From assembly GCF_013341275.1 (NCBI RefSeq), contig NZ_CP054476.1:757501-821500 (forward strand): 64,000 nucleotides of DNA. The letters run 5' to 3'. The position numbers were made by a program, and so were the translations under genes. The notes under the pieces were generated by a model that worked only from the letters and a program-made list of their open reading frames with translations, searched no databases and was not told the origin of the DNA. The DNA is from Methyloligella sp. GL2. GTDB lineage: Bacteria; Pseudomonadota; Alphaproteobacteria; Rhizobiales; Methyloligellaceae. Position 1 is the stretch's first letter, and each line of letters opens with the position of its first letter. Shown here piece by piece: positions 5,276 through 42,677 of the stretch.

Positions 5276-5350
5276 GGCGCCACTCGGGAAAGCGGCGGAA
5301 CGCGATCCGGTTCGAAACGGTTAGGTTGGCATGAGAATGAGGGAGGTCGC

Positions 5351-5974: not shown

Positions 5975-5988
5975 GTCGGCCGGCTGGA

Positions 5989-17509: not shown

Positions 17510-17588
<79 letters not shown>

Positions 17589-17925
17589 TTTCCTTTCTTG
17601 GTAACTTCGCCAACATCGGCCGGCCTCTAGGTTGGCCGCCCGTCCGCGAGTTACGGCTGGGTGCGTCCATCTGTTCGGGGCGCGCAAGCATATCCTAACC
17701 CCGCGATCGAATTTTCTGATGTGAAATTCGAATCCTTTTACATTGGGCGGCACAGCCGCGTCTTGCTGGCGTGCTTTCGAGGGGCGTTGACCGTTATTGT
17801 AGGTCGCTAGCCTGACCGAATGTTTTTGAGCCGTGAGAGGAATGGCAACGGCATCGACCGATGCGCTCATAGCGGACAGACAAACGTTCGACCGTCCGCT
17901 ATGAGCCGTTGATGTAAGACGAAGC
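17589..17925. other. Non-coding left end of the island
   Basis: No convincing gene is seen in these 337 nt. A minus-strand frame here runs through the tRNA and lacks any recognisable feature. The only structure is a 12-bp perfect inverted repeat (ctcatagcggac at 17866-17877, gtccgctatgag at 17894-17905), 20 nt past the end of the SRPBCC gene, with no T run. Confidence 0.5.
17866..17905. repeat. 12-bp perfect inverted repeat, 16-nt loop
   Basis: Arms ctcatagcggac and gtccgctatgag are exactly complementary. The repeat lies downstream of the minus-strand SRPBCC gene and could end its transcript, although no U-run follows on either strand. It may instead be a remnant of a small repeat element. 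Confidence 0.5.
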
Positions 17926-24638: not shown

Positions 24639-24973
24639 CCTCCTTGGTCGCTATCGACGGCAAGCGCTAGCACATCATCTAGCACAAAGATTTCCTCATC
24701 CTAAAATTATTGTTGTATATCAATAAATTATATCACAGGCCGTTCGCCTCATAACCTGAAGGTCGTAGGTTCAAATCCTACCCCCGCAACCAATCTTCCC
24801 AACCATATTAGGCATTGGGTCGGCCGCCGTTTAATCCGGCCGCTGTTTGGTCGCGGCGCGGCCGGGGGGCTGAAGCCCGATTGTTGTCAGTTCCCGCGCG
24901 CGACGACAGCCAGAATGAGCCTTTAGACAGAGCCTTGGACTGAGCCTTGGACCGAGCCTTGGCGATCCTCCGC
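24639..24973. other. Right end of island and spacer, no gene
   Basis: The 335 nt hold an AT-rich stretch (about 24690-24735), then the tRNA-fMet fragment, then ordinary GC-rich spacer. Between 24914 and 24962 there are four head-to-tail copies of a 12-bp unit based on gagccttggact. No reading frame here looks like a gene. Confidence 0.6.
24748..24794 (+). repeat. Right attachment repeat (attR), 3' fragment of tRNA-fMet
   Basis: Identical over 47 nt to 17542-17588. It lacks the acceptor 5' strand and D arm and therefore cannot be a functional tRNA. It is the displaced original 3' end of the tRNA gene. Confidence 0.85.
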
Positions 24974-26248
24974 TTAGAACTCGGTCAGGCCGCGGGGATT
25001 GGCCGATGGAGCGGGTTTCGTCTCAGTGGGGCGGCCGCTCATCCAAGGCGGATAGATGAAGCGCTCGGTGTTGTAGGGCTCCGGCGCGATCATCGCCAAC
25101 GGCGCTCTGAAGTCGTGGATCTGGTAGAAGATATGCGGCATGCCCAGCGAGGGGTCGGGCGTCAGCACCGGATAGGGGACGACGGCCTGCCAATCGGGAT
25201 GATAGCGGATGGTGCCGTGCACGGTGCGGTAGATCATGCCTCTGAGGGCAAACGCCACTTTCCTGTTCTGCTCGAAATCGCCCGGCGCGCCGGAGCCGCC
25301 GGCCATCGCCGCGCCGACGGCGTAGTGATGCAGGTTGCTATAGGACTGGCAGCCGATGGTCGGCGTCGAGCCATCGCCGAACCTGGCCTTGTAGCGGGTC
25401 TCGAAGCGTTTCCCCATTTCGTCGCGGAGCAGGCCGATGATCGAGGAGACGATGACGCCGACGCTCGCCTCCTGGGCGATATCGGCGAAGGTCCGGTGGA
25501 CCGCGCCGTATTGCAGATAGACCAGGCAGTCCATCGGGTTTTCCACGAATTGGCGTTGGAAATGCGCCAGATCGCCGGCGTAGAAATGGGTGTTGGCGAA
25601 AACGGCCGGATCGGTCGCCCGGACCTCCTCGATGACGTCGCGCCACTGGCTGGTCGGGGTCTGCACGATCTTCGGCCCGAAGCAGACCTGCCATCCATAG
25701 CTGGCCGCGGCCTTGGCCATCGAGTTGGAGATCACGATGCTGTAGGGCGTCGATCCGGAGACGATGGCGATGCGGTTGGATTTCGGGGTCCATTGCCCGC
25801 TATCCCGGAGCCAGGAGAGGAATTTGATCAGGCCGGGGCCATACCAATAGTCGGCCGGATCGGCCATGAAACAGCCGAAATACCGGTCTGGATCGCTCAT
25901 CACCGTATCGTGGTGCTGGAGCAGCGTATTGGCGTGGACATAGATGATGCCGGCATCGGCGATCGGCTCGTATTCGGAGTTCTGCGCGCCGATATTGTAG
26001 CCGTTGACGATGGCGTGGACCTTGTGCTTCTCGATCAGGAGCCGGGCTGCGGAAACGACCTCCTTCGCGGTCTGCCGGCAGGTATCGACGAAGAAGGGTT
26101 TGATCGGGCGGCCGAGCAGCCCGCCGCGCGCGTTGAGCTCTTCGCAGGCCAGAATGATGCCGTTGCGGAACTCGGCGCCGTCGGCGGCCGAAGGTCCGGT
26201 AAGGGGCACCATGCTGCCGATGGGCACGAATTCGGAACTGTCGTCCAC
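24974..26248 (-). CDS. Amide/urea-type periplasmic-binding-fold protein without signal peptide (probable cytosolic sensor)
   Basis: The 424-residue protein matches the type I periplasmic-binding family of AmiC, UrtA and FmdD: VPIGSMVPLTGPSAADGAEFRNGIILACEELNARGGLLGRPI at the start, then the two lobes to about residue 370. It begins MDDSSEFVPIG, directly at the first strand, with no signal peptide or lipobox, so it should stay in the cytoplasm. AmiC of Pseudomonas is a precedent: a binding-protein fold used as an intracellular amide sensor. It is the last gene of the minus-strand operon response regulator - kinase - this protein (56-nt gap after the kinase). I infer that it feeds amide binding to the kinase. 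Confidence 0.82.
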   Translation of the reverse strand: MDDSSEFVPIGSMVPLTGPSAADGAEFRNGIILACEELNARGGLLGRPIKPFFVDTCRQTAKEVVSAARLLIEKHKVHAIVNGYNIGAQNSEYEPIADAGIIYVHANTLLQHHDTVMSDPDRYFGCFMADPADYWYGPGLIKFLSWLRDSGQWTPKSNRIAIVSGSTPYSIVISNSMAKAAASYGWQVCFGPKIVQTPTSQWRDVIEEVRATDPAVFANTHFYAGDLAHFQRQFVENPMDCLVYLQYGAVHRTFADIAQEASVGVIVSSIIGLLRDEMGKRFETRYKARFGDGSTPTIGCQSYSNLHHYAVGAAMAGGSGAPGDFEQNRKVAFALRGMIYRTVHGTIRYHPDWQAVVPYPVLTPDPSLGMPHIFYQIHDFRAPLAMIAPEPYNTERFIYPPWMSGRPTETKPAPSANPRGLTEF

Positions 26249-26304
26249 GTCGATTATCCCTCAGTTGAAAATGCGCGACCGGTGCTTCTGCCGCTGTGAC
26301 AGGC

Positions 26305-27867
26305 TCAAGGACCCATCGTCTGTTTTAGAAAGTCCGGCTCGAAGAGAAGATTGTGCATCAGCACCCGCAGGCGCGGCGGGCTGACCGGCTTGACCAGAAC
26401 CGGGATACCGGCCTTCTGGATGTTGCTGATCACCTTCGGCTCTGCGTCTGCGGTGACGACCATGGCGGGCATTTCAGGATCGTCGACGAGGTCGCGGACC
26501 GCTTCGATTGCCTCAAGGCCGGTTCGGGTCTGCAGATTGTAATCGGCGATGATCAGCTCCGGGGTGACCAATCCTTCCGAGACCAGCCGTATCGCCTCGT
26601 CCTTGTTGGGCGCGGGGTGCACGTCGATGCCCCAGCGGCGCAACAGCTGGGCCATGGATTCGCGCAAGATCTCGTCATCCTCGATGAGCAAGACCGGCGT
26701 TCCGGCGAATTCGCCGCCGACGGCTTCGCTGACATCGGCGGCGGGGCCGATATCGCTGTGCCAGATATTGCCGAGCGGCACCCAGACCGAGAAGATCGAT
26801 CCCTTGTCCGGCCGGGAGCGCACGCCGATCGGATGTTCGAGAAGGTCGGCCAGGCGTTTCACGATATTGAGGCCGAGGCCGAGCCCCTTCCTCTGCTTCC
26901 GGCTGTCGTCGGTGACGCGGTAGAACTCGTCGAAGACGCGGGTACAATCCTCTTCGCTAATGCCGCGGCCGGTATCGACCACCTCGATGCGCAAGCCCCG
27001 CCCCTCTTTTCGGCAGCCGACAAGCACGCCGCCAACTTCGGTGAAGCGGATGGCGTTGGCGACGAAATTGCTCAGGATCCGCTCCAGCAGCGCGCGGTCG
27101 GTCGACACCGTCTTATGGGGGGTGACGAATCTGAGGTCGATCCCCTTCTCCTGGGCCTGATGATCGAATTGTATCTGGATGCGCTCGAACAGCTCCGAAA
27201 GCTGGAACGAGGTGATGCGCGGCTGAATCCGGCCGGCATCGAGCTGGCCGATCTGCAAAAGTGCGCCGAGGAGGTCCTCCATGATGGAGGCGGACACGCC
27301 CATGGCATGGAGAATTTCGCGACGCTGCTCCTCATCCTGCTCCTGCAGGCAGTTGTAGATCAGGATCTTCAGCGAGGCGAGCGGTTGGCGCAGGTCGTGA
27401 TTGGCAGCCCGCAGAAAGCGCGATTTGGCTTCGTCGGTGGCTTCCGCGGCTTCCTTGGCTTCGCGCAGCTCCCGCTCGTTGCGCTTGACTGCGGTGACGT
27501 CGGTGAAGGTGACCGCCATGCCGTCGGCGCGGGTTGGCCGCTGCGCGACATGCATGGTGTTGCCGGTCGCGAATTGGAAGTCGGAATCGCTGAGGGTCCC
27601 GAAGTCGCCGATCTTGTCGTGCGCCCATTGTTCGGGATCGCCGGGAACCACCCATTCTTGCGAATGGGCGACGGCCGCGACGTAATCCTCATAGCGCATG
27701 CCAAGAGAGACGGGCAGGGCGCAGCTGCGATGGAAGCCTTCGTTGATGTAGACGAGTTTGCGATCGGACGACCAGATCAGAATGCCTGTATCGAGGACGT
27801 CGAGTCCTTCCCAAACGGCGTCCAGCTCAGATTCGCCTTCCGCAGCCTGAGCCGGCGCGTCAGCCAT
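26305..27867 (-). CDS. Soluble hybrid histidine kinase (PAS-HisKA-HATPase-REC)
   Basis: The protein has no transmembrane segment. Domains in order: PAS-like (LDTGILIWSSDRKLVYINEGF, about 25-130), a short coiled coil, HisKA with phospho-acceptor His in ANHDLRQPL (about 155-165), HATPase with N-box NFVANAIRFTE, G1 VVDTGRGI and G2 GLGLGLNIV, and a C-terminal receiver with phospho-accepting Asp in LIIADYNLQTRTG and a conserved Lys in VLVKPVSPP. The ATG at 27867 overlaps the regulator stop by 8 nt, so they are co-translated. Because the kinase is cytosolic, it must read an internal signal, plausibly through the binding protein encoded next. Confidence 0.9.
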   Translation of the reverse strand: MADAPAQAAEGESELDAVWEGLDVLDTGILIWSSDRKLVYINEGFHRSCALPVSLGMRYEDYVAAVAHSQEWVVPGDPEQWAHDKIGDFGTLSDSDFQFATGNTMHVAQRPTRADGMAVTFTDVTAVKRNERELREAKEAAEATDEAKSRFLRAANHDLRQPLASLKILIYNCLQEQDEEQRREILHAMGVSASIMEDLLGALLQIGQLDAGRIQPRITSFQLSELFERIQIQFDHQAQEKGIDLRFVTPHKTVSTDRALLERILSNFVANAIRFTEVGGVLVGCRKEGRGLRIEVVDTGRGISEEDCTRVFDEFYRVTDDSRKQRKGLGLGLNIVKRLADLLEHPIGVRSRPDKGSIFSVWVPLGNIWHSDIGPAADVSEAVGGEFAGTPVLLIEDDEILRESMAQLLRRWGIDVHPAPNKDEAIRLVSEGLVTPELIIADYNLQTRTGLEAIEAVRDLVDDPEMPAMVVTADAEPKVISNIQKAGIPVLVKPVSPPRLRVLMHNLLFEPDFLKQTMGP

Positions 27868-28522
27868 TGGCAGCACTAGCGGCGCTGCCGAAATGCGTCA
27901 CAGCGTAGTGCACAGCGCTCGTCCGGTCGGGGAGGTTCAATTTCTTCATCGCGTTGCCGAGATGGATACGCACGGTCTGACTGCTGAGGCCGAGCTCTTC
28001 GGCGATATTCTTCACCGACGATCCGCTGCCGAGCAGAACCAGCACATCGCGCTCCCGGCTGGTGAGACTGCTTAAGTCTCGCTCTTCGGAAGTCGCATTC
28101 TTGGGGCGCTCCGCAGGCGCCGAAGAGCGCTCGATGATGCGGCGCGGGAAGGAGACTTCTCCGGCCAGCACGCGCTCCAGCGCCCGCACGATCTCGGGCC
28201 CGGCGGCCGATTTCGGGATATAGCCGATGGCGCCTTGCTCGACCGACCGGATGACGTGCTCGACATCTTCATGCACCGAGACGACCACCACCGGAATGTT
28301 GGGGTACTTCGCCCGAAGCGCATGCAGGCCGCCGAGCTCCTCCGAACCGGGCATGACGAGGTCCAGCAAGATCAAGCTGGTGTCGGGGTGCTCCGCCAGG
28401 AGCTCCATAAGCTCGCCGAAACTCTCGGCTTCGTAAATCTCAAGCTCCTGCTCCAGCCTGCGCATAATCTGCTTGAGAGACTGTCGGACCACCCAATGGT
28501 CGTCTCCGATAATGACCTTCAT
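27860..28522 (-). CDS. NarL/FixJ (LuxR-type) response regulator
   Basis: Residues 1-120 are a receiver domain with acidic pair GDDH, phospho-accepting Asp in LILLDLVMPG and Lys in GYIPKSA. Residues 150-210 are a LuxR helix-turn-helix: LTSRERDVLVLLGSGSSVKNIAEELGLSSQTVRIHLGNAMKKL. It is the first gene of the regulator-kinase-binding protein operon. Its most likely target is the divergent amide transporter promoter 0.4 kb away, where a CTAGA-N7-TCTAG palindrome lies; the same palindrome precedes the porin gene at 39.4 kb. The DNA-site link is inference. Confidence 0.9.
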   Translation of the reverse strand: MKVIIGDDHWVVRQSLKQIMRRLEQELEIYEAESFGELMELLAEHPDTSLILLDLVMPGSEELGGLHALRAKYPNIPVVVVSVHEDVEHVIRSVEQGAIGYIPKSAAGPEIVRALERVLAGEVSFPRRIIERSSAPAERPKNATSEERDLSSLTSRERDVLVLLGSGSSVKNIAEELGLSSQTVRIHLGNAMKKLNLPDRTSAVHYAVTHFGSAASAANG

Positions 28523-29015
28523 TCTGGAACGTTAGCTCCCTTCGCGTCGGCAGCGCGTGCGTCTAGAAGTGCCATGCCGGCGCGGCTGATTGATTCTCTA
28601 TATCCGCTGGGGGATTTCGTTCACATATGGTCATAGTTCGTGACCGATTCCAAGCAGGAGGAATGATAAATAACATCTTTTAGTTGCACGAAAGATGCTG
28701 GGCCACCCCGCTCTAGAGGATCTGCTGCGCGCTCTCGGGCTGCCGGATCGTCAGGTGGATCGTTAACAGATCCTTTCTAAGTCGCTCATTTGCCCGATAA
28801 ATTTGCGCAATGCACGTGAAAAAAACGCCAAGCGCACACGCTTTCGGCATTTGCGGCACTCTCCGATAAAAATTTTCGGCTGGCGCAGAAAAGGCATTGA
28901 CGGCCTCCCTGCAATTCGCTCAAGTGTCTAGACGTTAATTCTAGTTCACTCACCGAATATCTAGCGTTGTGTGTCTAAGAGGCATGCGCGCTTCGCCATC
29001 AGGGGGATCGTATCA
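28523..29015. other. Long divergent regulatory region
   Basis: This 490-nt gap separates the two-component operon from the amide transporter. No gene was found in it. It contains five CTAG tetramers (28563, 28713, 28928, 28941 and 28961); the last three are clustered 55-90 nt before the transporter start and include the palindrome listed separately. A weak TTGACG hexamer lies at about 28898. The large size suggests control from a distance. Confidence 0.55.
28928..28944. promoter_or_regulatory. CTAGA-N7-TCTAG palindrome upstream of amide transporter
   Basis: The 17-bp element CTAGA-CGTTAAT-TCTAG is repeated in form at 39359-39375 before the TorF porin gene. A further CTAG follows at 28961. 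It ends 71 nt before the transporter start codon. Candidate binding site of the LuxR-type regulator encoded at 27860-28522. Confidence 0.6.
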
Positions 29016-30323
29016 ATGGACTTTACCCGCCGAAAACTCCTCAAGACGACGCTCGCTGCTTCTGCCGCATTTTCAGCGCCGCATCTCTGGCTCCCGGCTT
29101 CGAAGGAAGCCTGGGGCGCGACGGTGAAGAAGGGCGAGCCGATCAAGGTCGGGCTTCTCTTCTCGCTTACCGGCGCGCTCGCCGTACCGGAGGAAGACTC
29201 CACGCTGGTGCTGCAATACGCCTTCGACGAGATCAACAAGAACGGCGGCATCAACGGCGTGCCGGTCGAGCCGGTGATCGTCGACGCCAAGTCGGACTTC
29301 AACGTCTACACCGAGAAGGCCAAGGAGCTGATCATCCGCGACAAGGTCATCGCGCTGTTCGGCTGCTACACCTCGGCGAGCCGCAAGGCGATCCTGCCGA
29401 CCGTGATGCAGCGCAATCATCTGCTCTACTACCCGACCTGCTACGAGGGCGCCGAGTGCACGCAGAACGCCATCTGCACCGGTCCGCTTGCCAATCAGCA
29501 TTCCAAGGACCTGATTCCCTTCATGGTGAAGAACTTCGGCAAGAAGGTCTTCTTCGTCGGGTCCAACTATGTCTGGCCGAAAGAGTCGAACAAGAACGCC
29601 AAGATCTGGCTGGAGGAGGCCGGCGGCGAGCTGCTCGGCGAAGAGTATGTCCCGCTCGGCAGCTCCGAGTTCGGTCCGGTGTTCAATAAGATCCGCGACA
29701 CCCAGCCGGACTTCATCTTCTCGACGGTCGTCGGCGCATCCGACATCGCCTTCCACAAGCAGTTCAAGCAGGAAGGCTTCAAGGTGGACAAGATGCCGAT
29801 CGCATCGCTCACCACGGGCGAGATCGAGACCCGCGCCATGGGGCCGGAATTCGGTGCCGGCCACTTCCTCTCCGCGCCTTACTTCCAGAGCCTCGACAAC
29901 CCGACCAACCACAAATTCGTCGAGGGCTTCCTGTCGAGCAAATACGGCAAGAACGGCGTGACCCACTACAACATGGAGGAGACCTATCTCTCCGCCTATG
30001 TGTTCAAATACGGCTTCGAGAAAGCCGTCGCGGCGGTCGGGGTCGAGAACGTCACGCCACGCATCATCCGCGATCATTCCGGCGGTGTCCGGGTGGAGGA
30101 CAATGTCTCGCCGGAAGGCTTGGTCTGGATCGACGAGGACAACTTCAACACCTGGCTGAAGCCGAAGATCGGTCAGTGCCAGGGCGATGGCACCTTCAAG
30201 GTTCTGAAGGCGTCCGAAGGCCAGGTCCAGCCGCTTCCCTTCTCGATCTATCCCGACTCGGGCACCTGCACCAAGGACGGGCTGAAGGCGCCTGACGGCA
30301 AGATCCGCACCAACGTCATCTGA
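29016..30323 (+). CDS. Urea/short-chain amide ABC transporter substrate-binding protein (UrtA/FmdD-like)
   Basis: The 435-residue precursor starts with a twin-arginine signal (FTRRKLLKTTLAASAAF), suggesting Tat export. The mature protein is a type I binding protein: IKVGLLFSLTGALAVPEEDSTLVLQYAFDEINKNGGINGVPV, then GCYTSASRKAILPTVMQRNHLLYYPTCYEG, a segment characteristic of UrtA/FmdD/AmiC-type proteins. The ATG at 29016 is preceded by aggggga. It opens a five-gene operon with two permeases and two ATPases leading directly to dimethylformamidase, so N-formyl or short amides are likelier ligands than urea. A strong hairpin follows the gene. Confidence 0.9.
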   Translation: MDFTRRKLLKTTLAASAAFSAPHLWLPASKEAWGATVKKGEPIKVGLLFSLTGALAVPEEDSTLVLQYAFDEINKNGGINGVPVEPVIVDAKSDFNVYTEKAKELIIRDKVIALFGCYTSASRKAILPTVMQRNHLLYYPTCYEGAECTQNAICTGPLANQHSKDLIPFMVKNFGKKVFFVGSNYVWPKESNKNAKIWLEEAGGELLGEEYVPLGSSEFGPVFNKIRDTQPDFIFSTVVGASDIAFHKQFKQEGFKVDKMPIASLTTGEIETRAMGPEFGAGHFLSAPYFQSLDNPTNHKFVEGFLSSKYGKNGVTHYNMEETYLSAYVFKYGFEKAVAAVGVENVTPRIIRDHSGGVRVEDNVSPEGLVWIDEDNFNTWLKPKIGQCQGDGTFKVLKASEGQVQPLPFSIYPDSGTCTKDGLKAPDGKIRTNVI

Positions 30324-30461: not shown

Positions 30462-31337
30462 ATGGATCTCGGGACGCTCGCGAACGCTCTCATCCTCGGC
30501 GTCAGCATTGCCAGCATCTGGCTTGTTGCGGCGCTGGGGCTGACGGTTATCTACGGCACTGCCGGCGTGATCAACATGGCGCATGGCGAGCTGATCATGC
30601 TCGGCGCCTACAGCACCTATATGCTGCAGGTCTATCTCGGCGTTCCCTATCTCATCTGTATCCCGGCCTCGTTCGTGATCGTGGCGCTGGTTGGGCTTCT
30701 GCTCGAGCGCGGGCTCATCCGCTATCTCTACAATCGGCCGCTCGACACACTGCTGGCCACCTGCGGCGTGTCGCTGGTGCTGATGCAGAGCGTGCGGCTG
30801 ATCTTCGGCAGCGATCCGAAATACATCTCCGTGCCGGAAATCTTCTCCAGCAATATCGCGCTCGGCTCGGTCTCCATCTCCACCTTCCGCGTCATCATCT
30901 TGGCGGTCACGGCGCTGCTGGTCTTCGGGCTGTGGTTCTTGTTCTACAAGACGCGCTTCGGCGTGCAGGTCCGCGCCGTGATGCAGAACAAGGAGATGGC
31001 CGCCTCGTTCGGCATCAATGCCGGCCGCGTCTACATGCTGACCTTCTCGCTCGGGGCGGGGCTTGCCGGCGTCGCCGGCTCGCTGTTCGGCGTGCTGGCC
31101 ATCGTGCTGCCGACCATGGGCGCGAGCTACGTGGTGCAGTCCTTCCTGATGGTGGTGGTCGGCGGCGGTTCGCTTGCCGGCAGCGTCGCGGCGAGTGCCG
31201 CGACCGGGGAGATGCAATCCGTGCTGGCATCGTTCACCAACGCCACCTTGGCCCGCTTCATCATCTTCGTGCTGATCGTCGTGTTCCTCCGCTTCCGGCC
31301 GCAAGGGCTGTTCGCGCAAGGCGGGGTGAGGCGATGA
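30462..31337 (+). CDS. Branched-chain/urea-type ABC transporter permease (UrtB-like)
   Basis: A 291-residue permease of the LivH/UrtB family with about eight helices. Diagnostic segments are IYGTAGVINMAHGELIMLGAY in the second and third helices, RAVMQNKEMAASFGINA (the coupling EAA-like loop) and VVGGGSLAGSV. The ATG at 30462 (RBS gggga) begins MDLGTLANALILG, directly at the first helix; an upstream in-frame start at 30390 would add basic residues. It forms the membrane channel with the next permease. Confidence 0.92.
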   Translation: MDLGTLANALILGVSIASIWLVAALGLTVIYGTAGVINMAHGELIMLGAYSTYMLQVYLGVPYLICIPASFVIVALVGLLLERGLIRYLYNRPLDTLLATCGVSLVLMQSVRLIFGSDPKYISVPEIFSSNIALGSVSISTFRVIILAVTALLVFGLWFLFYKTRFGVQVRAVMQNKEMAASFGINAGRVYMLTFSLGAGLAGVAGSLFGVLAIVLPTMGASYVVQSFLMVVVGGGSLAGSVAASAATGEMQSVLASFTNATLARFIIFVLIVVFLRFRPQGLFAQGGVRR

Positions 31338-31377: not shown

Positions 31378-32481
31378 ATGGGCAATATCTATCACGACAA
31401 GAAGCTGCAATGGCTCGCCTATGCGGTGTTCTTCGCCGCCATCGGTATCGTGCCGCTATTCGTCGGCGACGCCTTTCTGCTCAACCAGCTCGCGACCTAC
31501 GGCATCTACGCGATGTTGGCTCTGTCGATCAGCTTGTGCTGGGGCTTTGGCGGCATCCTCAATCTCGGCCAGGGCATTTCCTTCGGCCTTGGCGCCTACG
31601 GCATGGCGATGACCATGCAGATGCAGACCCAGACGGACTCCAACCCGATCCCGCCCTTCATGCTGAACAACAGCCTGGAGCATCTGCCGTGGTTCTGGGA
31701 GCCGTTCTCCAGCACGGCGGGCGGGCTGATCTTCGCGGTCGCGGTGCCGACATTCTTCTGCGCGGTGTTCGGCAGCATCATGTTCCGGGCGCGCGTCTCC
31801 GGTGTGTTCTTCACCATCATGACGCTGGCTATGCTGTCGGCATTCTACACCATCATCCTCGATCAGCAGGCCTATACCGGCGGTGCCAACGGCTTGACGC
31901 CGCCGGCCTCGCTGCAGATCGGCAGCTTCGAGATCGATCCCTATAGCGCCACCGCCTACTGGATCGTCTTCGCCCTTCTATGCGTTGCCACGGTGCTGGC
32001 GAAGCTCCTCACCCAGAGCTCGTTCGGGCTGGTGACCCAGGCGATCCGCGACGATGCCGAACGGGTGCGCTTCCTCGGCTATAACGTCGCCGGCTACGAG
32101 ACCGCGATCTACACCATCTCCGGCATGATCGCCGCCATCGCCGGCTGCTGCTGGGTGATGCTGGTGCAGTATGTGTCGCCGGCTCAGCTCGATGTCAGCC
32201 TCAGCCTTTCCATGGTGATCTGGGCGGCGATCGGCGGACGCAACTCGCTGCTCTGGGCGATGATCGGCGCCTTCCTCATCCAGGGCGGCCAGAGCTATCT
32301 CGGCGACCAGTTTCTTTCGACCTGGCTTCTGCTTCTCGGCGGCTTCTTCATCGTCGTGGTGCGGTTCCTGCCGAACGGCCTGGCAAGCCTCGCCGAGGCG
32401 GGGCTCGGCTGGCTGAGCGCACGGCTTCCGTCGAAGTCGGGCCGGGCCATCGAATCCGTGACGGCAGAGGAGGGGGCATAA
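31378..32481 (+). CDS. Branched-chain/urea-type ABC transporter permease (UrtC-like)
   Basis: A 367-residue LivM/UrtC-family permease with about ten helices. Family features are LALSISLCWGFGGILNLGQGISFGLGAYGMAM, the coupling loop FGLVTQAIRDDAERVRFLGYN and WAAIGGRNSLLWAMIGAFL. It is 40 nt after the first permease. The UrtC-like extension between helices 3 and 4 (residues about 82-115) is present, which separates it from ordinary LivM. The stop is 2 nt before the next ATPase start. Confidence 0.92.
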   Translation: MGNIYHDKKLQWLAYAVFFAAIGIVPLFVGDAFLLNQLATYGIYAMLALSISLCWGFGGILNLGQGISFGLGAYGMAMTMQMQTQTDSNPIPPFMLNNSLEHLPWFWEPFSSTAGGLIFAVAVPTFFCAVFGSIMFRARVSGVFFTIMTLAMLSAFYTIILDQQAYTGGANGLTPPASLQIGSFEIDPYSATAYWIVFALLCVATVLAKLLTQSSFGLVTQAIRDDAERVRFLGYNVAGYETAIYTISGMIAAIAGCCWVMLVQYVSPAQLDVSLSLSMVIWAAIGGRNSLLWAMIGAFLIQGGQSYLGDQFLSTWLLLLGGFFIVVVRFLPNGLASLAEAGLGWLSARLPSKSGRAIESVTAEEGA

Positions 32482-32483
32482 AG

Positions 32484-33233
32484 ATGTCGGGACTTCTCGA
32501 AATCCAGCATCTGTCGAAGAGCTTCGATACGGTCCAGGTGATCAACGACTTCAGCATGGAAGTCACCGAGGGCACGATCTGCTGCCTGGTCGGTCCCAAC
32601 GGCGCCGGCAAGACCACGACGATCGATCTGATCACCGGGCGGGTGAAGCCGACTTCGGGCAAGATCCTGTTCGCCGGCAACGACATCACCGGCCAGGACG
32701 AGCATGTCACGGCGCGAGCCGGGATCGGTCGCAAGTTCCAGGTGCCGGCCGTGCTGCGCGACATGACGGTGCGGCAAAATCTGGAGGTCGCCTATAGCCG
32801 GCAGACCAATCCCTTCACCAACCTGTTCACCTTTCACCCGAGCGGGCTGAAGCAGAAGTTCGACGAGATTGCGACGCTGGCCGGGCTGACGCACCGGCTC
32901 GAAGAGTTCGCGGGCAATCTCTCGCATGGCGAAACGCAATGGCTGGAGATCGGCATGGTGCTGATGCAGGAGCCGCGGCTCTTGCTGATGGACGAGCCGA
33001 TTGCCGGCATGACCGAAGCCGAGATCGAAAAGACCACCAGCATCTTCAAGGATCTGCGCAAGAGCGCGACGTTGGTCGTGGTGGAGCACGATATGGGCTT
33101 CGTGCGCGAGATCGCCGATGTGGTGACGGTGATGCATATGGGTTCGCTGCTGGCGCAAGGCGACATCGCCGCAATCGAAGCGGATGCGCGCGTGCGCGAC
33201 GTCTATCTCGGCGAGGAGGAGGAAGCGGCATGA
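32484..33233 (+). CDS. ABC transporter ATP-binding protein (UrtD-like)
   Basis: A 249-residue LivG/UrtD-type ATPase: Walker A GPNGAGKT, Q-loop in GIGRKFQVPAVL (the UrtD form), signature LSHGETQWLEIG in place of LSGG, Walker B LLLMDEP and a switch His in VVEHDMGFV. The signature LSHGE-Q-LEIG is typical of UrtD. The stop overlaps the start of the next ATPase (ATGA). Confidence 0.93.
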   Translation: MSGLLEIQHLSKSFDTVQVINDFSMEVTEGTICCLVGPNGAGKTTTIDLITGRVKPTSGKILFAGNDITGQDEHVTARAGIGRKFQVPAVLRDMTVRQNLEVAYSRQTNPFTNLFTFHPSGLKQKFDEIATLAGLTHRLEEFAGNLSHGETQWLEIGMVLMQEPRLLLMDEPIAGMTEAEIEKTTSIFKDLRKSATLVVVEHDMGFVREIADVVTVMHMGSLLAQGDIAAIEADARVRDVYLGEEEEAA

Positions 33234-33934
33234 GCGCGTTGCTGCAGCTGGAAAACGTCACGTCCTATTACGGCGCGACGCCGATCCTCAGGGACTTTTC
33301 CTTCGAGCTTAAGAAGGGGCAATGCGTCTGCGTGCTCGGCCGCAACGGCGTCGGCAAGACCACCTTGATGCGCACCATCATGGGGCTGACCGACAAATCG
33401 ACCGGCGCGATCACGATGGACGGCGCCGAGATCGGCAACAAGCCGACCTATGTGCGGGCGACTTACGGGCTCGGCTACGTGCCTCAGGGGCGCGGCATTC
33501 TTTCGGATTTCACGGTGCGCGAGAACATCCTGCTGGGCACCTTCGCGCGCAAGGATCACGCCGCCGGTATCCCGGAGCTTTGCCTGAAGATCTTTCCCTA
33601 TTTGCGGGAGAATCTCGACCGGCGCGCCGGGCTTCTTTCCGGCGGGCAGAAGCAGCAGCTCGCCGTGGCGCGCGCGCTCGCCGTCGATCCGCAAGTGTTG
33701 CTGCTGGACGAGCCGACCGAAGGCATCCAGCCCAACATCGTGCACGAGATCGGCGAGATCCTGCAGATGCTGAACAAGGAGCTCGGCATCAGCCTGATCC
33801 TGACCGAGCAGCATATCAAGGTCGCGCGCAAGCTCGGCGACGCCTTCGTCATGGTCGATAACGGCCGGGTGGTGGCAAGCGGGCCGATCGCGGAAATGAC
33901 CGACGAACTCGTCGAGCAACATATGACGATCTAA
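33230..33934 (+). CDS. ABC transporter ATP-binding protein (UrtE-like)
   Basis: A 234-residue LivF/UrtE-type ATPase: Walker A GRNGVGKT, GYVPQGRGIL, signature LSGGQKQQLAVA, Walker B VLLLDEPTEGIQP and switch His in LTEQHIKV. The PTEGIQP wording is usual for UrtE. It is the last transporter gene; dimethylformamidase small subunit follows after 87 nt, so the uptake genes and the enzyme may be co-transcribed. Confidence 0.93.
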   Translation: MSALLQLENVTSYYGATPILRDFSFELKKGQCVCVLGRNGVGKTTLMRTIMGLTDKSTGAITMDGAEIGNKPTYVRATYGLGYVPQGRGILSDFTVRENILLGTFARKDHAAGIPELCLKIFPYLRENLDRRAGLLSGGQKQQLAVARALAVDPQVLLLDEPTEGIQPNIVHEIGEILQMLNKELGISLILTEQHIKVARKLGDAFVMVDNGRVVASGPIAEMTDELVEQHMTI

Positions 33935-34021
33935 CGGTTTGGGAACGATAGTCGGCGCCCCCATCCGCGGCGCGCCGAACGATCGAGTGAGGAAGTGAAT
34001 CAGCAACCAACGGAGCGAAAC

Positions 34022-34462
34022 ATGATTCCAATTCCGAAGAAGGGCACGCCGGAGCGTGAGGAACTCATTCGGCTGCACAGGGAGTGCGTCGACTCCATGA
34101 AGGGCGTCGCTGGGTTCTCGGTGCTGAAATGCGAGACGCCGGGCGACACCACCGTGGTGACTGGCGGCGTGCACGAGTATCCGACGCTCCGCCGGGTCCT
34201 GATGCGCATGCGCGGCGAGTCGCCGGCGGGCAAGCTCATCACCATCTGCACCAAGGTGGACAAGGAATGGCGCATCGGCCGCCTGTCGGGCATCCGCGGC
34301 GTGCCGCCGGAGTTCGTCAACGACAAGGTCTACACCGATGAGCAGGAGATCCAGCACGACATCTTCCTGATGCGCCTGGACGAGCTGCCGGAGACGGCGG
34401 GCATGCCGGAGAATTTCGAAGAAGGCTGGAAGCACCGCGACGACAACTGGCCGGTGACCTGA
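34022..34462 (+). CDS. dmfA1: N,N-dimethylformamidase, small (alpha) subunit
   Basis: A 146-residue protein that I recognise as the small subunit of N,N-dimethylformamidase by its size, the internal WRIGRLSGIRGVPPEFVNDKVYTDEQEIQHDIFLMRLDELP stretch and its position directly before the large subunit. The holoenzyme hydrolyses dimethylformamide to formate and dimethylamine; the small subunit has no catalytic metal. The ATG at 34022 has cggagcg upstream; a GTG at 33995 is a weaker alternative. It is slightly longer than the roughly 132-residue subunit described in Alcaligenes. It lies between the transporter and the large-subunit gene. Confidence 0.85.
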   Translation: MIPIPKKGTPEREELIRLHRECVDSMKGVAGFSVLKCETPGDTTVVTGGVHEYPTLRRVLMRMRGESPAGKLITICTKVDKEWRIGRLSGIRGVPPEFVNDKVYTDEQEIQHDIFLMRLDELPETAGMPENFEEGWKHRDDNWPVT

Positions 34463-34596: not shown

Positions 34597-36999
34597 ATGT
34601 GTGCCATGAGGCTGACCGGATACGCCGATAAGTTCGGCGTTCACCCCGGCGAGAAGATCAAGTTCTACGTCAATTGCGACGGCCCTTCGGAGTTCAAGGC
34701 CGAGGTCGTGCAGATGATCCACGGCGACACCAATCCGCGCGGGCCCGGCTATATCGAGCGGCCGATGGATACGGCGGCGAACGGCGTCTACAAGGGCCGC
34801 AAGCAGATCATTCACAGCGGCTCCTACGGCTTTGTCGAGGATGCGCCGCAGTTCCACGTCGACAGCTTCACGCTGCAGTGCTGGATCTGGCCGACCACGC
34901 CGAAGACCCATCCGCGCTATTGGAAGCACGGCGCGCAAGGGCTGGTGACCAAATGGATGGACGGCAAGGGCTATGGCCTCTTCATCAACGAAGAGGGCTG
35001 CGTCGAGCTGCGCATCAACGAGCACAAGATCAGCACCGGCGTGCCGATCCGCGATCATGCCTGGCACTTCATCGCCGCCAGCTTCGATGCGGAGACCGGC
35101 GAGGTGGTGCTGTATCACGAGCCGCAGATCGTCTATGCGCTGGATCCGGTGATCGAGCCGGTGAAGACCACGGTGGACACCACCATTGCCCATACCGCCG
35201 CACCGACGGCGCTCGGCGCTTATGTGGAGAAGATCGACGGCAACGATGCGCTGGCCCAGTCTTCGCTGCCGGCCGGCGTCTGGTTTGCCGGCAAGTATAA
35301 CGGCAAGATCGACAGCCCGCGCATCTGCAACAAAGCCCTCAACCGGTTCGAGATCGAGCAGATGAAGGGCGGTGCCCAGCCCGGCCTGACCGAGCGGCGC
35401 AATTCCGGTCCGACCGGCGCGCTGTCGGAGGTGATCGTTGCGGCCTGGGATTTCTGGGACGGCATCGACACCATCGCCGCCAAGGATAACGGCCCGTATG
35501 GCTTCGACGCGCAGCTGGTCAATTGCCCGACCCGCGCGCTGACCGGCTACAATTGGTCCGGCCAGAATTTCGACTGGAAGTTCGCCACCAAGGAATACGG
35601 CGCCATCCACTTCCATGACGACGATGTCGACAATGCCCGCTGGCAGGTCGACGTCGAATGGGATGTGCCGGCAGAAGGCATCAAGAGCCGCTTCTACGCG
35701 CTGAAGCTCACCACCGAAGACGGCGATGAGGACTACATTCCGTTCTGGGTGGTGCCGGAGATCGGCAAGGAGCAATCGAAGATCGCGGTGATGGTGCCGA
35801 CCATCAGCTACATGGCCTATGCCAACGAGCATGTGGCGTGTAACGCGGGCGGCGCGGAGCTGTTTGTCTACCGCGTGCCGATCATGCAGCAGCAGAACAT
35901 GTTCCTGGCCGAGCACCGGGAATATGGCGGCTCGATCTACGACACGCATACCGACGGCTCGGGCATCTGCCTGTCCTCGCGTCTGCGTCCGATCCTCAGC
36001 ATCCGGCCGAAATACGATCACTTCCTGGCGCAGGCGCCGTGGCAGTATCCCGCCGACCTCCACCTGATCTATTGGCTGGAGACGATGGGCTACGAATACG
36101 ACGTCATCACCGATGAGGACGTGACCTATGAAGGCCTGGCCCGGCTGGAGAACTACAACGTCATCATCACCGGCTCGCATCCGGAGCATAATTCCGGCAC
36201 CCAGCTCGACGCTCTGCACAACTACACGCAGCGCGGCGGACGCCTGATGTATATGGGCGCGGATGCCTGGTACTGGGTGCATTCCTACCACCCGGCCTAC
36301 GAGTCCGAAGGGCGCGGTGTGCTCACCGAGATGCGGCGCTGCGAATCCGGCATCCGCACTTGGCGCGCAGAGCCTGGCGAGTATTACCACCAGGGCACCG
36401 GTGAGCTCGGCGGCATGTGGCGCTTCCGCGGCCGCTCGCTCTACTCGGTCGCCGGTGTGGGCATGACCAATGAAGGCTTCGACGTCTCGACCTATTACAG
36501 CCGGACGCCGGATAGTCTCGACCCGCGGGTCGCCTGGGCCTTCGAGGGTATCGATTATGACGAGCCGATCGGCAATTTCGGCCTGGTGGGCGGCGGCTGC
36601 GCCGGCCTGGAGCTCGATATCGTCGACGTCACGCTGGGCTCGCCGCCGCACACGCTTGCGGTTGCGACCTCGGCCGGCCGCCATACCGAAGCCTATCTGT
36701 TGGTGATGGAAGATTTCGGCTTCAACCAGCAGGGCTTGGACGGCACCACCCATCCGCGTGTGCGTGGCGACATCGCCTTCCACGAGACGCCGAATGGCGG
36801 CGGTTGCTTCGCCTTCTCGTCGATCGCGTTCTGCGGCTCGCTTCCCTGGAACGAGGGCAAGAACAACGTCTCGACCCTGGTGGGCAATGTGCTCGACCGC
36901 TTCATGCAGGACGGCCCGCTGCCGGCGGCGCCGGCCGAGGCGATCAAGCATCGCGGACGGGCGGATTACGACACGCCGGAGCCTGCCACGCAGGCCTAA
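34597..36999 (+). CDS. dmfA2: N,N-dimethylformamidase, large (beta) subunit
   Basis: The 800-residue protein matches the dimethylformamidase large subunit: an N-terminal beta domain (TGYADKFGVHPGEKIKFYVNCDGP), a laminin-G/concanavalin-like domain (about 85-250, FTLQCWIWPTTPK... YGLFINEEG), and a C-terminal catalytic domain with a Rossmann-like core (NYNVIITGSHPEHNSG). The published structure reports a mononuclear iron bound by two Tyr and one Glu; by eye the candidates here are Tyr408 (SYMAY), Tyr448 (GGSIY) and Glu530 (SHPEH). It is about 40 residues longer than the described enzyme. It releases dimethylamine and formate, and sits downstream of an amide importer. Confidence 0.88.
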   Translation: MCAMRLTGYADKFGVHPGEKIKFYVNCDGPSEFKAEVVQMIHGDTNPRGPGYIERPMDTAANGVYKGRKQIIHSGSYGFVEDAPQFHVDSFTLQCWIWPTTPKTHPRYWKHGAQGLVTKWMDGKGYGLFINEEGCVELRINEHKISTGVPIRDHAWHFIAASFDAETGEVVLYHEPQIVYALDPVIEPVKTTVDTTIAHTAAPTALGAYVEKIDGNDALAQSSLPAGVWFAGKYNGKIDSPRICNKALNRFEIEQMKGGAQPGLTERRNSGPTGALSEVIVAAWDFWDGIDTIAAKDNGPYGFDAQLVNCPTRALTGYNWSGQNFDWKFATKEYGAIHFHDDDVDNARWQVDVEWDVPAEGIKSRFYALKLTTEDGDEDYIPFWVVPEIGKEQSKIAVMVPTISYMAYANEHVACNAGGAELFVYRVPIMQQQNMFLAEHREYGGSIYDTHTDGSGICLSSRLRPILSIRPKYDHFLAQAPWQYPADLHLIYWLETMGYEYDVITDEDVTYEGLARLENYNVIITGSHPEHNSGTQLDALHNYTQRGGRLMYMGADAWYWVHSYHPAYESEGRGVLTEMRRCESGIRTWRAEPGEYYHQGTGELGGMWRFRGRSLYSVAGVGMTNEGFDVSTYYSRTPDSLDPRVAWAFEGIDYDEPIGNFGLVGGGCAGLELDIVDVTLGSPPHTLAVATSAGRHTEAYLLVMEDFGFNQQGLDGTTHPRVRGDIAFHETPNGGGCFAFSSIAFCGSLPWNEGKNNVSTLVGNVLDRFMQDGPLPAAPAEAIKHRGRADYDTPEPATQA

Positions 37000-39358: not shown

Positions 39359-39375
39359 CTAGATAAAATATCTAG
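39359..39375. promoter_or_regulatory. CTAGA-N7-TCTAG palindrome upstream of porin gene
   Basis: CTAGA-TAAAATA-TCTAG is a 17-bp palindrome with 7-bp perfect arms (CTAGATA / TATCTAG). It ends 49 nt before the porin start and matches the form of the site at 28928-28944 before the amide transporter. A further CTAG follows at 39383. Confidence 0.62.
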
Positions 39376-39424: not shown

Positions 39425-40222
39425 ATGTCTTCGATGAAGCTGTCGCTGGCGACGGGATTGTTGGCGATGACCATCGCCGTCTCGTCTGCCCATGCGGAGG
39501 ATGTGGAGCAGTCGCTCGACTCGACGTCGTGGCCGGTGGATATCCTGGTCGGGACCAAGTTCACCACCGACTACAATCTGCGAAGCGTCTCGCAGACGCA
39601 GGGTAATCCGGCTGTGCAGAGCTATGCCGAGATCAATCTCGATAACGGTCTTTATGCCGGTTTCTGGGCCTCGAATGTCGATTTCGAGGGGACCGATCCG
39701 TATGCCGAGTTCGACTATTATGGCGGTCTTCGCCATAGCTTCGACAAGCTGACGCTGGATGGCGGTTACGTCTATATCGATTATATCGGCGAGAATCCGG
39801 GCCCCGAGCTCGATTTCTGGAAGATCTACGGCATCGGCAAATACGCGCTTTCCGACGACATCACGATCGGTGCCAACCTATTCTGGACGAGCTCGTTCAT
39901 CGGCTATAACGGCATTGACGGCACTCATTCGTCGGCCTTCGCCAGTGTGGCCTTGCCGCAGTTCGGCCTGCCGGAGAGCGTCGGGACTTATCTGTCCGGC
40001 GAGATCGGCCGGCAATGGGTGAGCGACGATTTCGCACCCGATTACACCTATTGGAATGCCGGCGTCGGCTTCACCTACAAGGCGGCGACGCTTGACCTTC
40101 GCTACACCGGATCCGACCTGAGCGAGGCCGGCTGCGCCGCGTTCATCGGGCAGCGGGATTCCTGCGGCAACCGCTTCGTTGCCAGCATCTCCTTCGACAC
40201 GTCTTTCGATCAGCTGCGTTAA
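39425..40222 (+). CDS. TorF-family outer-membrane porin
   Basis: A 265-residue precursor with a Sec signal peptide (ATGLLAMTIAVSSAHA, cleavage near residue 22). The mature part alternates aromatic and polar residues in beta-strands and matches the TorF/Gcw_chp family: VGTKFTTDYNLRSVSQTQGNPAVQSYAEINLDNGLYAGFWASNVDF at the start and FVASISFD with a terminal aromatic-poor strand. Family members are small outer-membrane barrels. In Methylophilus an outer-membrane porin (FmdC) is encoded with the amide ABC system FmdDEF, so an amide-uptake role fits here, supported by the shared upstream palindrome. The RBS is aggggga. Confidence 0.82.
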   Translation: MSSMKLSLATGLLAMTIAVSSAHAEDVEQSLDSTSWPVDILVGTKFTTDYNLRSVSQTQGNPAVQSYAEINLDNGLYAGFWASNVDFEGTDPYAEFDYYGGLRHSFDKLTLDGGYVYIDYIGENPGPELDFWKIYGIGKYALSDDITIGANLFWTSSFIGYNGIDGTHSSAFASVALPQFGLPESVGTYLSGEIGRQWVSDDFAPDYTYWNAGVGFTYKAATLDLRYTGSDLSEAGCAAFIGQRDSCGNRFVASISFDTSFDQLR

Positions 40223-40573: not shown

Positions 40574-41629
40574 ATGAAGGGCGAACCCAAGCTGCGGATG
40601 CCGGAAAACTGGACGCCGCCGGTTCCCTCCTACAGTTCACGCGTCGTGCCGGAGGAGGGCCATCTGGTCATCCTCTATCTGGGGGCGCAGGCTCGGTCAC
40701 AAGACGTCTCTCGCGCCGCATTCTTAGAGATTTCCAGCTTTTTCGACGATGTGGACGACAGCCCGTATTGGCTGGATCGGGCCGCCTATTGCTCCGCCTC
40801 CGGGTATTGGGAGCACATCGTCATCGCTTATTTCGTGAGCGTCGAAGCCTTCGAGGCCTGGGTCACGGCGAGCGGGTTCGGAACTTGGTGGGCGGACAGC
40901 GCCCGGCTGAGCCAGGATGCCGGTCTCTGGCAGGAGCGCCTGGTGCTCTCGGGCGATCGTATCGAAGCGCTTCATTCTTCTCCTAATAAGGATGCGCATT
41001 CCCATGGCGGCGAGATCGTCGGTCCGATCCGGCATCATGCGTATTGGGGCGGCATGCGCGACCGGCTCCAGGTATCCCGCCACGATCACCTCGAAAGCGC
41101 GGTGACGGGGTATCCCGAACGGGGGGAGGTGGAGTCATACGGCCGGCGCGTCGTCGTGCCGGTGCCGCAGAACCTCGCGATAATCCGTTCGGGTCAGGAC
41201 AGGCGGTTCGCATCTGTCGAAGAGCGTGCGCTTTACGACGAGATCGTGCGCGGCAATCTGCTCAAAGGCATGGCGTATCTGGAAGAGCGTGGCAGCGAAG
41301 TCGGGTGCTTTGCCTGCCGGTACGTCACCGAAATCGACGCATCCGGCCAAGAGACGGACCGCAATTTCGGCCATTGTCTGTTTCGCAGCCTCGAAGACCT
41401 GGAGAATTGGGCGAAATCGCATCCGACCCATCTGGCCATATTCGGCAGCTTCTTTGAGCTTCAGAAGCGCTGCGACAACGATATGACGCTGCGCTTCTAC
41501 CACGAGGTCGGGGTCACCCCCGCATCGGGACTGCATTTCGAATACGTCAATTGCCATCCCGAAACCGGGCTTCTGGGATATTTTTGCCCCGGAGGCCGTC
41601 ACGCATTTTTCCAAAAGCCAGGAGCATGA
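40574..41629 (+). CDS. oxd: Aldoxime dehydratase (phenylacetaldoxime dehydratase family)
   Basis: A 351-residue haem lyase that dehydrates aldoximes to nitriles. Aligned with characterised Oxd proteins it has [10 protein letters not shown] (conserved active-site Arg), LAIIRSGQD (active-site Ser), NFGHC with the haem-ligand His at residue 267, SHPTH at 282-286 with the distal catalytic His, and the terminal [13 protein letters not shown]. All key residues are present. The start follows ggagtgggcg. The nitrilase gene begins 4 nt after the stop, so the pair forms the aldoxime-nitrile pathway: aldoxime to nitrile to acid plus ammonia. Confidence 0.9.
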
Positions 41630-41633
41630 GTGC

Positions 41634-42677
41634 ATGAAGAAGATCAAGGCGGCGGCGGTACAGGCGGCCCCGGTTTTTCTCGATCTGAACGGGTCGATCG
41701 ATAAGGCAGAGAAATATGTCGAGGAGGCTGCGGCGAACGGGGCGGATCTCGTCGCCTTTCCGGAAACCTGGCTTCCAGGCTTCCCGTTCTTTATCTGGTT
41801 GGGAACGCCGCGGGAAAGTCTCGCTTATTTCCCGCGCTATCACGCCAACAGCATGGAAGTGAATTCGCCGGAGATGCGCCGGCTGCAATCGATCGCGGCC
41901 AAAAACAAGGTCACGCTCGTCATGGGCTTTTCCGAGCGCGATGGCGGGAGCCGGTATATGGCCCAGGTGATCATCGGACCCGATGGCGAAATCCTTCTGA
42001 CCCGGCGTAAGCTTAAACCCACCCATGTGGAGCGGACCATCTTCGGAGAAGGCGACGGCTCCGATCTTCGAGTCGTGGATGCCGAATTTGGGCGTTTGGG
42101 CGCCCTCAATTGCTGGGAACACGTACAGCCGTTGATGAAGATGGCGATGTATGCCCAGCATGAGGAAGTGCATGTCGCCGGCTGGCCGAGCCTTTGCGTC
42201 GGACGCGACGTCGCTTATGCCTTGGGCCCGGAAGTGAACAATGCGGCCAGCCAGATTTATGCGGTCGAGGGCGGGTGCTACGTGCTTGCTCCCTGTGCCG
42301 TCGTCTCTCAGGAGATGTTCGACATCATGTGCGACACGCCGGAAAAAGCCCACGTGCTCAATCCGTATGGCAGCAAGCCGGGCGGCGGTTTCACCATGAT
42401 TTACGGTCCGGATGGCCGTGAGATGTGCGACCCGTTGCCGGAAGACCAGGAAGGCATTCTGTACGCTGATCTCGATCCCGAAACGCTTATTCTCGCCAAG
42501 GCGGCCGCCGATCCGGTCGGTCATTATGCGCGCGCCGATGCGGTTAGGCTTGTCGTCAATCGCAAGAAGCGCGTCGTGATGGAGGAGATCGATAACGAGG
42601 ATCGTCGTGCAAAGCCTGCCGGGAGCGGGCAGCAAGACGATGGCGAAGAAGATATCGTCGAATTCAGCGTCCAGTAG
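41634..42677 (+). CDS. Nitrilase
   Basis: A 347-residue nitrilase with the full catalytic set: Glu in [13 protein letters not shown], Lys in [10 protein letters not shown] and Cys in [13 protein letters not shown]. The CWEH form and the length are those of true nitrilases rather than amidases, giving a carboxylic acid and ammonia. The last 30 residues ([20 protein letters not shown]) are charged and unstructured, typical of spiral nitrilase tails. The RBS ggag lies within the end of the oxd gene, 4 nt apart, so the two are translationally coupled. The substrate class (arylacetonitrile or aliphatic) is not fixed by sequence. Confidence 0.92.

Follow-up and report, generated by a model that had tools for sequence, protein, structure and literature searches.

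Exported binding proteins feed membrane kinases in several bacterial sensory systems, LuxP-LuxQ and TorT-TorS among them. BctC, a periplasmic binding protein of the transport type, likewise stimulates the membrane histidine kinase BctE, which has a periplasmic sensor domain, and about ten characterised cases are counted in which a binding protein stimulates a kinase from the periplasmic side (PMC9602780). Inside the cell, AmiC (a type-I binding-fold amide sensor of Pseudomonas) and NasS (a nitrate-binding, signal-less relative of the exported NrtA) are established cytosolic sensors that act directly on REC-type ANTAR partners, the antiterminator AmiR and NasT respectively, with no kinase in the NasS-NasT pair (PMC3795266). 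A third design is the soluble hybrid kinase NahK of Pseudomonas, which is modulated by the co-cistronic cytosolic protein NosP in a network that also names ErdR as regulator; on the basis of structure models, YiaY (ErcA) has been suggested to act on PP_2683 (ErcS), and the text of that source calls kinases of this type soluble, whereas its table predicts a membrane location (PMC12997753). Here we describe a three-gene unit in a 64,000-nt stretch of contig NZ_CP054476.1 of Methyloligella sp. GL2 (the window, to whose positions all coordinates refer unless another locus is named) that encodes a response regulator (RR), a soluble hybrid kinase (HK) and a periplasmic-binding-fold protein without signal peptide (BP), and in which, by analogy, a binding protein would take the place that NosP has beside NahK.

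The three open reading frames (ORFs) lie on the minus strand between 24974 and 28522 in the order RR-HK-BP, the start of HK overlapping the end of RR and BP beginning with a GTG 56 bp past the HK stop (Table 1). They face a divergent operon in which an exported binding protein, UrtB/C-like permeases and two further ATP-binding cassette (ABC) genes are followed by DmfA1/DmfA2-like genes of the dimethylformamidase (DMFase) type. An initial annotation had described an operon-like trio facing an amide-type transport operon with its own exported binding protein, had taken the kinase as soluble and BP as lacking a signal peptide, and had let its proposal depend on the gene order being conserved in relatives. 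All of this was borne out by the results given below, while its placing of BP in the AmiC/UrtA/FmdD family did not hold, and its "LuxR-type regulator" proved to be a complete response regulator, receiver domain included. That the three genes work together as a single signalling unit on the divergent operon is in our judgement very probable.

Table 1. Features of the trio, the facing operon and the second operator-linked cluster (positions in the window).
Feature	Position	Strand	Evidence
RR, NarL/ErdR-like response regulator (REC + GerE helix-turn-helix), 220 aa	28522..27860	-	ORF, Pfam, NCBIfam
HK, soluble hybrid kinase PAS_7-HisKA-HATPase_c-REC, 523 aa	27876..26305	-	Pfam, NCBIfam, hydropathy, model
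BP, periplasmic-binding-fold protein, no signal peptide, 424 aa	26248..24974	-	Pfam, model
Putative operator CTAGACGTTAATTCTAG (CTAGA-N7-TCTAG)	28928..28944	.	Pattern searches, shuffles
Exported UrtA-like binding protein of divergent transporter	28971..30323	+	Pfam, NCBIfam; conserved start at 29016
UrtB-like permease	30462..31337	+	TIGR03409 308.4 bits, above cut-off
UrtC-like permease	31378..32481	+	TIGR03408 327.1 bits, above cut-off
UrtD-like ATPase	32484..33233	+	Named from ORF, operon position and conservation
UrtE-like ATPase	33230..33934	+	Named from frame within ORF 32939-33934 and conservation
DmfA1-like small subunit, DMFase-type enzyme	33995..34462	+	Position before DmfA2; 60% identity to pAMI5 counterpart; zero Pfam or NCBIfam matches
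DmfA2-like large subunit	34597..36999	+	PF20254 286.4 bits
Second exact copy of the putative operator CTAGATAAAATATCTAG	39359..39375	.	Genome pattern search
Gcw_chp protein, 50 bp after second operator	39425..40222	+	PF09694 60.5 bits
Haem-containing (aldoxime) dehydratase family protein, possible regulon member	40574..41629	+	PF13816 251.8 bits
Nitrilase-superfamily hydrolase, possible regulon member	41634..42677	+	PF00795 191.9 bits

An upstream start that would add a signal peptide to BP is ruled out in the window, because an in-frame stop lies only four codons (GIID) before the GTG, and we regard a cytosolic location as nearly certain. Some relatives have long open frames upstream of BP (520, 134 and 128 codons at loci L039, L044 and L060); these cover the position of HK but are read in a different frame. 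When ten relatives were checked codon by codon, the nearest upstream start lay 3-10 codons before the match in eight; at L060 the match begins at a GTG with zero upstream starts, and at L039 it also begins at a GTG, with upstream starts only at least 445 codons away, inside the HK gene. A signal flagged at L066 by a crude rule was overturned, the only upstream start codon there being six codons before the fold.

BP matches Peripla_BP_6 (91.6 bits, cut-off 31.7), and its AlphaFold model is a confident and complete binding fold (mean predicted local distance difference test, pLDDT, 89.5), so that the type-I fold of ABC transport proteins is present according to the model and their export signal is absent. 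The nearest solved relative, 3h5l, is a protein of R. pomeroyi deposited as an ABC transporter component, and shares both sequence family and fold with BP (46% identity; Z 57.8 and root-mean-square deviation 1.9 over 397 aligned residues). AmiC and UrtA resemble BP by fold (Z about 35-36); by sequence, BP reaches 22 bits against the UrtA model (cut-off 492.75) and 38.5 bits against Peripla_BP_5 in a partial match over about 75 of 363 positions, and no AmiC chain was found among its solved-structure sequence matches at E 0.001. BP is cytosolic and signal-less like AmiC but stands outside the AmiC/Peripla_BP_5 sequence group, and its operon neighbours are HK and a regulator with a GerE domain rather than an ANTAR partner. 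The UrtA/AmiC-like member at this locus is the exported protein of the facing operon, which matches AmiC among solved structures. Between BP and its close exported relatives 116 positions are identical, for which reason BP probably still binds a similar small molecule, and at 32 positions the BP type differs from the exported type (14 sensors and 5 transporters compared).

HK is composed of PAS_7, HisKA, HATPase_c and Response_reg domains. The best of its 98 NCBIfam matches, NF041832, covers the whole 370-position model at 339 bits, below the curated cut-off of 400, and in sequence HK comes nearest to the NahK/ErcS models, with scores below their cut-offs. Hydropathy revealed no membrane helix in HK (highest 19-residue mean 1.32, in the dimerisation and histidine phosphotransfer region), no periplasmic sensor domain of the kind found in kinases partnered by BctC or LuxP, and no membrane-like stretch in 40 kinase rows of HK and its relatives, duplicate and cut copies included (maximum 1.78). 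In the predicted structure (pLDDT 78.5), PAS-like strands at residues 31-126 are followed by a long helix at 128-178; the domain arrangement, with a predicted template modelling score of 0.39, was not relied on. H160 and D445 are invariant across 16 trio kinases, and the PAS domain varies far more between loci than the remainder of the protein. RR carries Response_reg and GerE, its best NCBIfam match being ErdR (NF041830, 135.5 bits, below the cut-off of 390), and because a receiver domain is present, the output is of the two-component type.

In order to trace the trio, six BP peptide patterns were run against a collection of genomes from 84,980 species, a scan that detects close relatives only. 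It returned 29 loci, and RR-HK-BP occur in the same order and on the same strand in 25 of them, which goes beyond chance; in all 25 the retrieved sequence also contains a DmfA2-like gene. The remaining four (L057-L059, L061) lack HK and are transport operons whose BP is of the exported type. Trio hosts include Hyphomicrobium, Methylopila, Ancylobacter, Xanthobacter, Methylobacterium, Hansschlegelia, Methylocella, Beijerinckia, Rhodobacterales and others, with plasmid copies on p1 of Aminobacter niigataensis DMFA1 and pB of Ensifer adhaerens. The surroundings vary: in Methylobacterium the transporter is on the opposite side and DmfA1A2 faces the trio, at L052-L055 ABC genes with a different binding protein lie opposite the trio, and at L043 the HK match falls into two overlapping pieces, a possible frame break. 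At L062 a flotillin-domain gene (4414-6174) lies between the trio and a DMFase paralogue; marine FArhodopsin clusters are described with flotillin, DMFase, LuxR and hybrid kinase names as well (PMC10308929). Among 337 genomes drawn from the class, 12 further BP matches were obtained at E 1e-80, all with an export-type N-terminus (10 by rule, two by eye), 11 with UrtD/E-like neighbours and none with an HK match within the 1.5-kb flanks. No BP relative was found at E 1e-30 in the 11 other genomes drawn from the organism's own family, which fits a horizontal gain.

The BP-family tree was built from 59 rows representing 52 sequences (the window and 51 loci), hand-picked to drop near-duplicates. 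All 25 kinase-linked rows form one clade (support 99 in the Shimodaira-Hasegawa-like approximate likelihood ratio test) among exported transport proteins, the HK label requiring one change on the tree and the signal label three. The 28 rows without export signal comprise 25 with HK directly upstream and three fused to a helix-turn-helix (HTH), and HK stands beside none of the 31 exported rows. Close exported relatives are 43-55% identical to BP, and those encoded in transport operons begin with signals of the twin-arginine type. The simplest history would have a single transport protein lose its export signal and join a kinase; the root is a midpoint, so that loss of export is the simplest reading rather than proof. 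The three HTH fusions form a separate clade in which the same fold is joined to a GerE domain, a one-component intracellular use. These proteins (L022, L027, L031) have 608-747 aa and no signal peptide was seen in them; polysaccharide-deacetylase-like genes (L022, L031) and an asparaginase-like gene (L022), named by eye, lie beside them.

A signal-less binding protein is also paired with a soluble kinase on plasmid pAMI5 of Paracoccus aminophilus (L063, 7892-11308), the one plasmid on which this second pairing was found. There, a 406-aa Peripla_BP_5 protein is followed by a soluble PAS-HisKA_3 kinase and a NarL-type regulator, and the three genes face dmfA1A2 and an AmiS/UreI gene, the DMFase being 71% identical to that of the window. 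Its matches among solved structures include 8tg1, a urea-binding structure (6.8e-68), and AmiC (1.1e-60). An AmiC-like assignment was nevertheless rejected, since a 31-row tree sets the protein apart from 15 AmiC-like rows (one of them, L094, cut short) and groups it with ten exported UrtA-like proteins of DMFase clusters, the window's own included (support 100; best identity 51%), on a long branch whose exact place is unsure. Relatives of the pAMI5 protein were exported transport proteins both in the 337 class genomes (one at E 1e-110 besides the window's own) and in a search of 21 genomes from a single family, 11 of which gave matches at E 1e-100. Because its binding protein and its kinase both belong to other families than BP and HK, the pAMI5 pairing would have arisen separately. 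A further candidate on Aminobacter plasmid pANY103d was dropped, as its binding protein has a classical hydrophobic signal and its kinase is membrane-type (2CSK_N).

Between the trio and the facing operon lies a 17-bp palindrome, CTAGA-N7-TCTAG, with its centre 80 bp upstream of the transport operon's conserved start codon. It is present anywhere in the fetched stretch in exact form at 14 of 26 trio loci and with at most one mismatch at 19. The arms are paired 21 times at a spacer of 7 (one match, L082, being a duplicate record of the window site) versus 0-2 times at any other spacer from 0 to 20. In the 3.23-Mb genome of the organism only two exact palindromes occur, both inside the window, against four arm pairs at all other spacers from 0 to 20 combined; of five one-mismatch palindromes, one was inspected; it sits at the end of an ORF within the paralogous region L102 and was not counted. 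Exact copies are found 32-43 nt before the extrapolated start of the transporter binding protein (9 records), 134-149 nt before DmfA1 (5 records) and 335-366 nt before RR (3 records). The tetranucleotide CTAG occurs 95 times in 21 intergenic regions of trio loci, after 7 of 28 had been dropped as near-copies, versus 36.5 times in shuffles. The palindromic form is the informative one, as the single pattern TCTAGACGTT gave three matches within one mismatch in the window versus 1.35 expected and was uninformative. The second copy in the window precedes the Gcw_chp gene, after which come the aldoxime dehydratase and the nitrilase-family gene. In Hansschlegelia quercus (L042, 17251-17301) a third copy of the palindrome was seen 50 nt before an ORF that its motif suggests to be amidase-like, with urease-like genes (by eye) nearby.

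The exported binding protein of the facing operon has a twin-arginine signal, MDFTRRKLLKTT, from the conserved Met at 29016, and scores 374.7 bits against Peripla_BP_5 and 329.7 bits against the UrtA model, below the cut-off of 492.75. The DmfA2-like chain, which contains PF20254 (DMFA2_C), is 38% identical to DmfA2 of pAMI2 and 71% identical to the pAMI5 paralogue. Its active site was compared at Tyr399, Tyr440, Glu521, Asn547 and Glu657; counted by hand on the alignment, both Tyr, both Glu and the iron ligands are kept. A known regulator of such an operon is DmfR, a LuxR-family activator of dmfA1A2 on pAMI2 (PMC4543880), which controls a DMFase operon as the trio would. In the 14 kb read with the LuxR-family gene that precedes dmfA1 on pAMI2 (344 aa, presumably dmfR), neither a kinase nor a binding protein is annotated, the annotation being incomplete. 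The PLSDB "beta-lactamase" of pAMI2 (L065, 6096-6359) overlies part of an IS3-family transposase and is probably a false prediction. Elsewhere in the genome of the organism, a second DMFase-like large subunit (34% identity) stands with an ABC operon (L102, 620-8361) that includes a twin-arginine-type binding protein 28% identical to BP, and no RR or HK matches were found in those 17 kb.

The mechanism that we infer would run as follows. BP would stay in the cytosol and bind a small amide or related nitrogen compound after its entry into the cell. Contact with HK, most likely through its PAS domain and the helix that follows, would let the open or closed state of BP shift the balance of autokinase and phosphatase activity in one direction or the other, as NosP modulates NahK. 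HK would then set the phosphorylation of RR, either directly or via its own REC domain and a histidine phosphotransfer protein, and RR would bind CTAGA-N7-TCTAG and control the divergent transporter-DMFase operon and, in this genome, also the aldoxime dehydratase/nitrilase cluster. We think it fairly probable that BP is the intracellular ligand sensor of HK in a system that controls amide uptake and hydrolysis through the palindrome, and hold a direct modulation of HK by BP to be about equally probable. Gene order shows that HK is co-encoded with a cytosolic BP, by which it would be regulated. The likeness to NosP-NahK and YiaY-PP_2683 lies in a hybrid kinase, here one nearest to the NahK/ErcS type, with a co-encoded cytosolic partner, and in the regulator, ErdR there and an ErdR-like protein here; the partners differ, NosP binding nitric oxide, YiaY being alcohol-dehydrogenase-like and BP having a transport-type binding fold, and so do the targets (PMC12997753).

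Several observations weigh against this account. The contact between BP and HK rests on genomic linkage, and HK, with a PAS domain of its own, could sense alone. The palindrome is missing from 7 of the 26 trio loci even with one mismatch, one exact copy (L014/L103) falls inside the HK gene and another (L058) is at a locus without the trio, and three of the 21 intergenic regions (L045, L056, L062) have less CTAG than their shuffles. A backward-read control pattern, which differs in base composition from the palindrome, is commoner in the genome (73 sites versus 7 with one mismatch allowed; 255 sites in the spacer scan). The motif was first spotted by eye in the same sequences that were used for counting, and the shuffle figure (11 palindromes in 10 of 21 regions versus a mean of 0.01 and at most 1 in 300 shuffles) is therefore flattering, the spacer control and the genome count being the better tests. 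AmiC-like proteins are the best-known cytosolic type and have ANTAR proteins, not kinases, as their targets. A survey of this family in 398 genomes found 17 matches, spread over 13 of them, and the exported proteins L121 and L122 were set aside. An AmiR-like ANTAR neighbour was found at 14 of the 15 loci left, with none found at L118, and a relative of either of the two kinases discussed here beside none of the 15; in three plasmid regions read, AmiC relatives adjoin a urea-type ABC transporter and an amidase. As for the ligand, catalytic Asn547 of the DMFase is replaced by Asp on the same hand count, and the pAMI5 relative was reported without a link to the use of dimethylformamide (DMF) (PMC4543880). 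DMF itself is rather unlikely; with aldoxime dehydratase and nitrilase genes behind the same palindrome, a different amide or a related nitrogen compound would be no less likely. The initial annotation had BP feed HK with formamide or DMF as ligand, and both parts of that proposal keep their conditional form here.

If HK sensed alone through PAS_7, BP would serve in the cytosol as an accessory that never touches the kinase and either buffers the ligand, carries it or dampens the signal. The high variability of the PAS domain between loci is what a ligand domain may show, and nothing computed shows contact between BP and HK, but BP directly follows HK in all 25 trios, at loci that show three or more arrangements of the target operons, and a mere ligand buffer would have no evident reason to stay attached to a kinase gene; we consider this explanation unlikely. 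That BP acts instead on RR or another partner, as AmiC does on the REC-ANTAR protein AmiR, is in our view very unlikely. RR does have a REC domain, like the partners on which AmiC and NasS act directly (PMC3795266), and the binding fold is naturally fused to a LuxR-type HTH, yet the BP gene adjoins HK and not RR in the 25 trios, the accessory sensor described for NahK-type kinases acts on the kinase (PMC12997753), and BP is not AmiC-like by sequence. Finally, BP might be an ordinary transport binding protein with a missed signal peptide or another export route, as its close relatives are exported transport proteins; with no room for a signal upstream, signal loss common to the kinase-linked tree rows and a separate exported binding protein serving the transporter, this is hardly credible.

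Directly beside the BP gene, a 59-nt direct repeat (93%) was noted at 17535-17593 and 24741-24799, the copies being 7.2 kb apart. It corresponds to the 3' end of tRNA-Met (17510-17586), a genome search that allowed up to three mismatches found its core at these two places only, and the repeats look like att-like boundaries of a small island that adjoins BP and has the lowest G+C of the window (58-59%).

The initial annotation had regarded such an input as a new kind. The cytosolic binding-fold partner stands, and among the matches listed for the open-access literature (titles and abstract openings) there was no report of a kinase paired with a cytosolic binding protein; NosP-NahK already provides a soluble kinase whose sensor is a distinct, co-encoded protein (PMC12997753), and this aspect is less unprecedented than claimed. 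On a wider view, we lean slightly towards a novel type of two-component input, with an intracellular Venus-flytrap protein, derived from an ABC-transport binding protein by loss of the export signal, as the sensing subunit of a soluble kinase, that arose at least twice beside the DMFase family and reports the cytosolic and not the external level of substrate: once as a 3h5l-type protein with an NahK-like HisKA kinase in methylotrophs and other alphaproteobacteria, and once on pAMI5 as a relative of the binding protein that serves the DMFase transporter, with a HisKA_3 kinase. If this is true, the trio would join two known designs, the kinase-stimulating binding proteins and the cytosolic binding-fold sensors, in a purifiable system free of membranes in which ligand, sensor, kinase, regulator and operator could all be reconstituted and from which a modular amide biosensor might be made, and the tree would offer a clean case of a transport protein turned intracellular sensor, with its sister transport proteins at hand for comparison.

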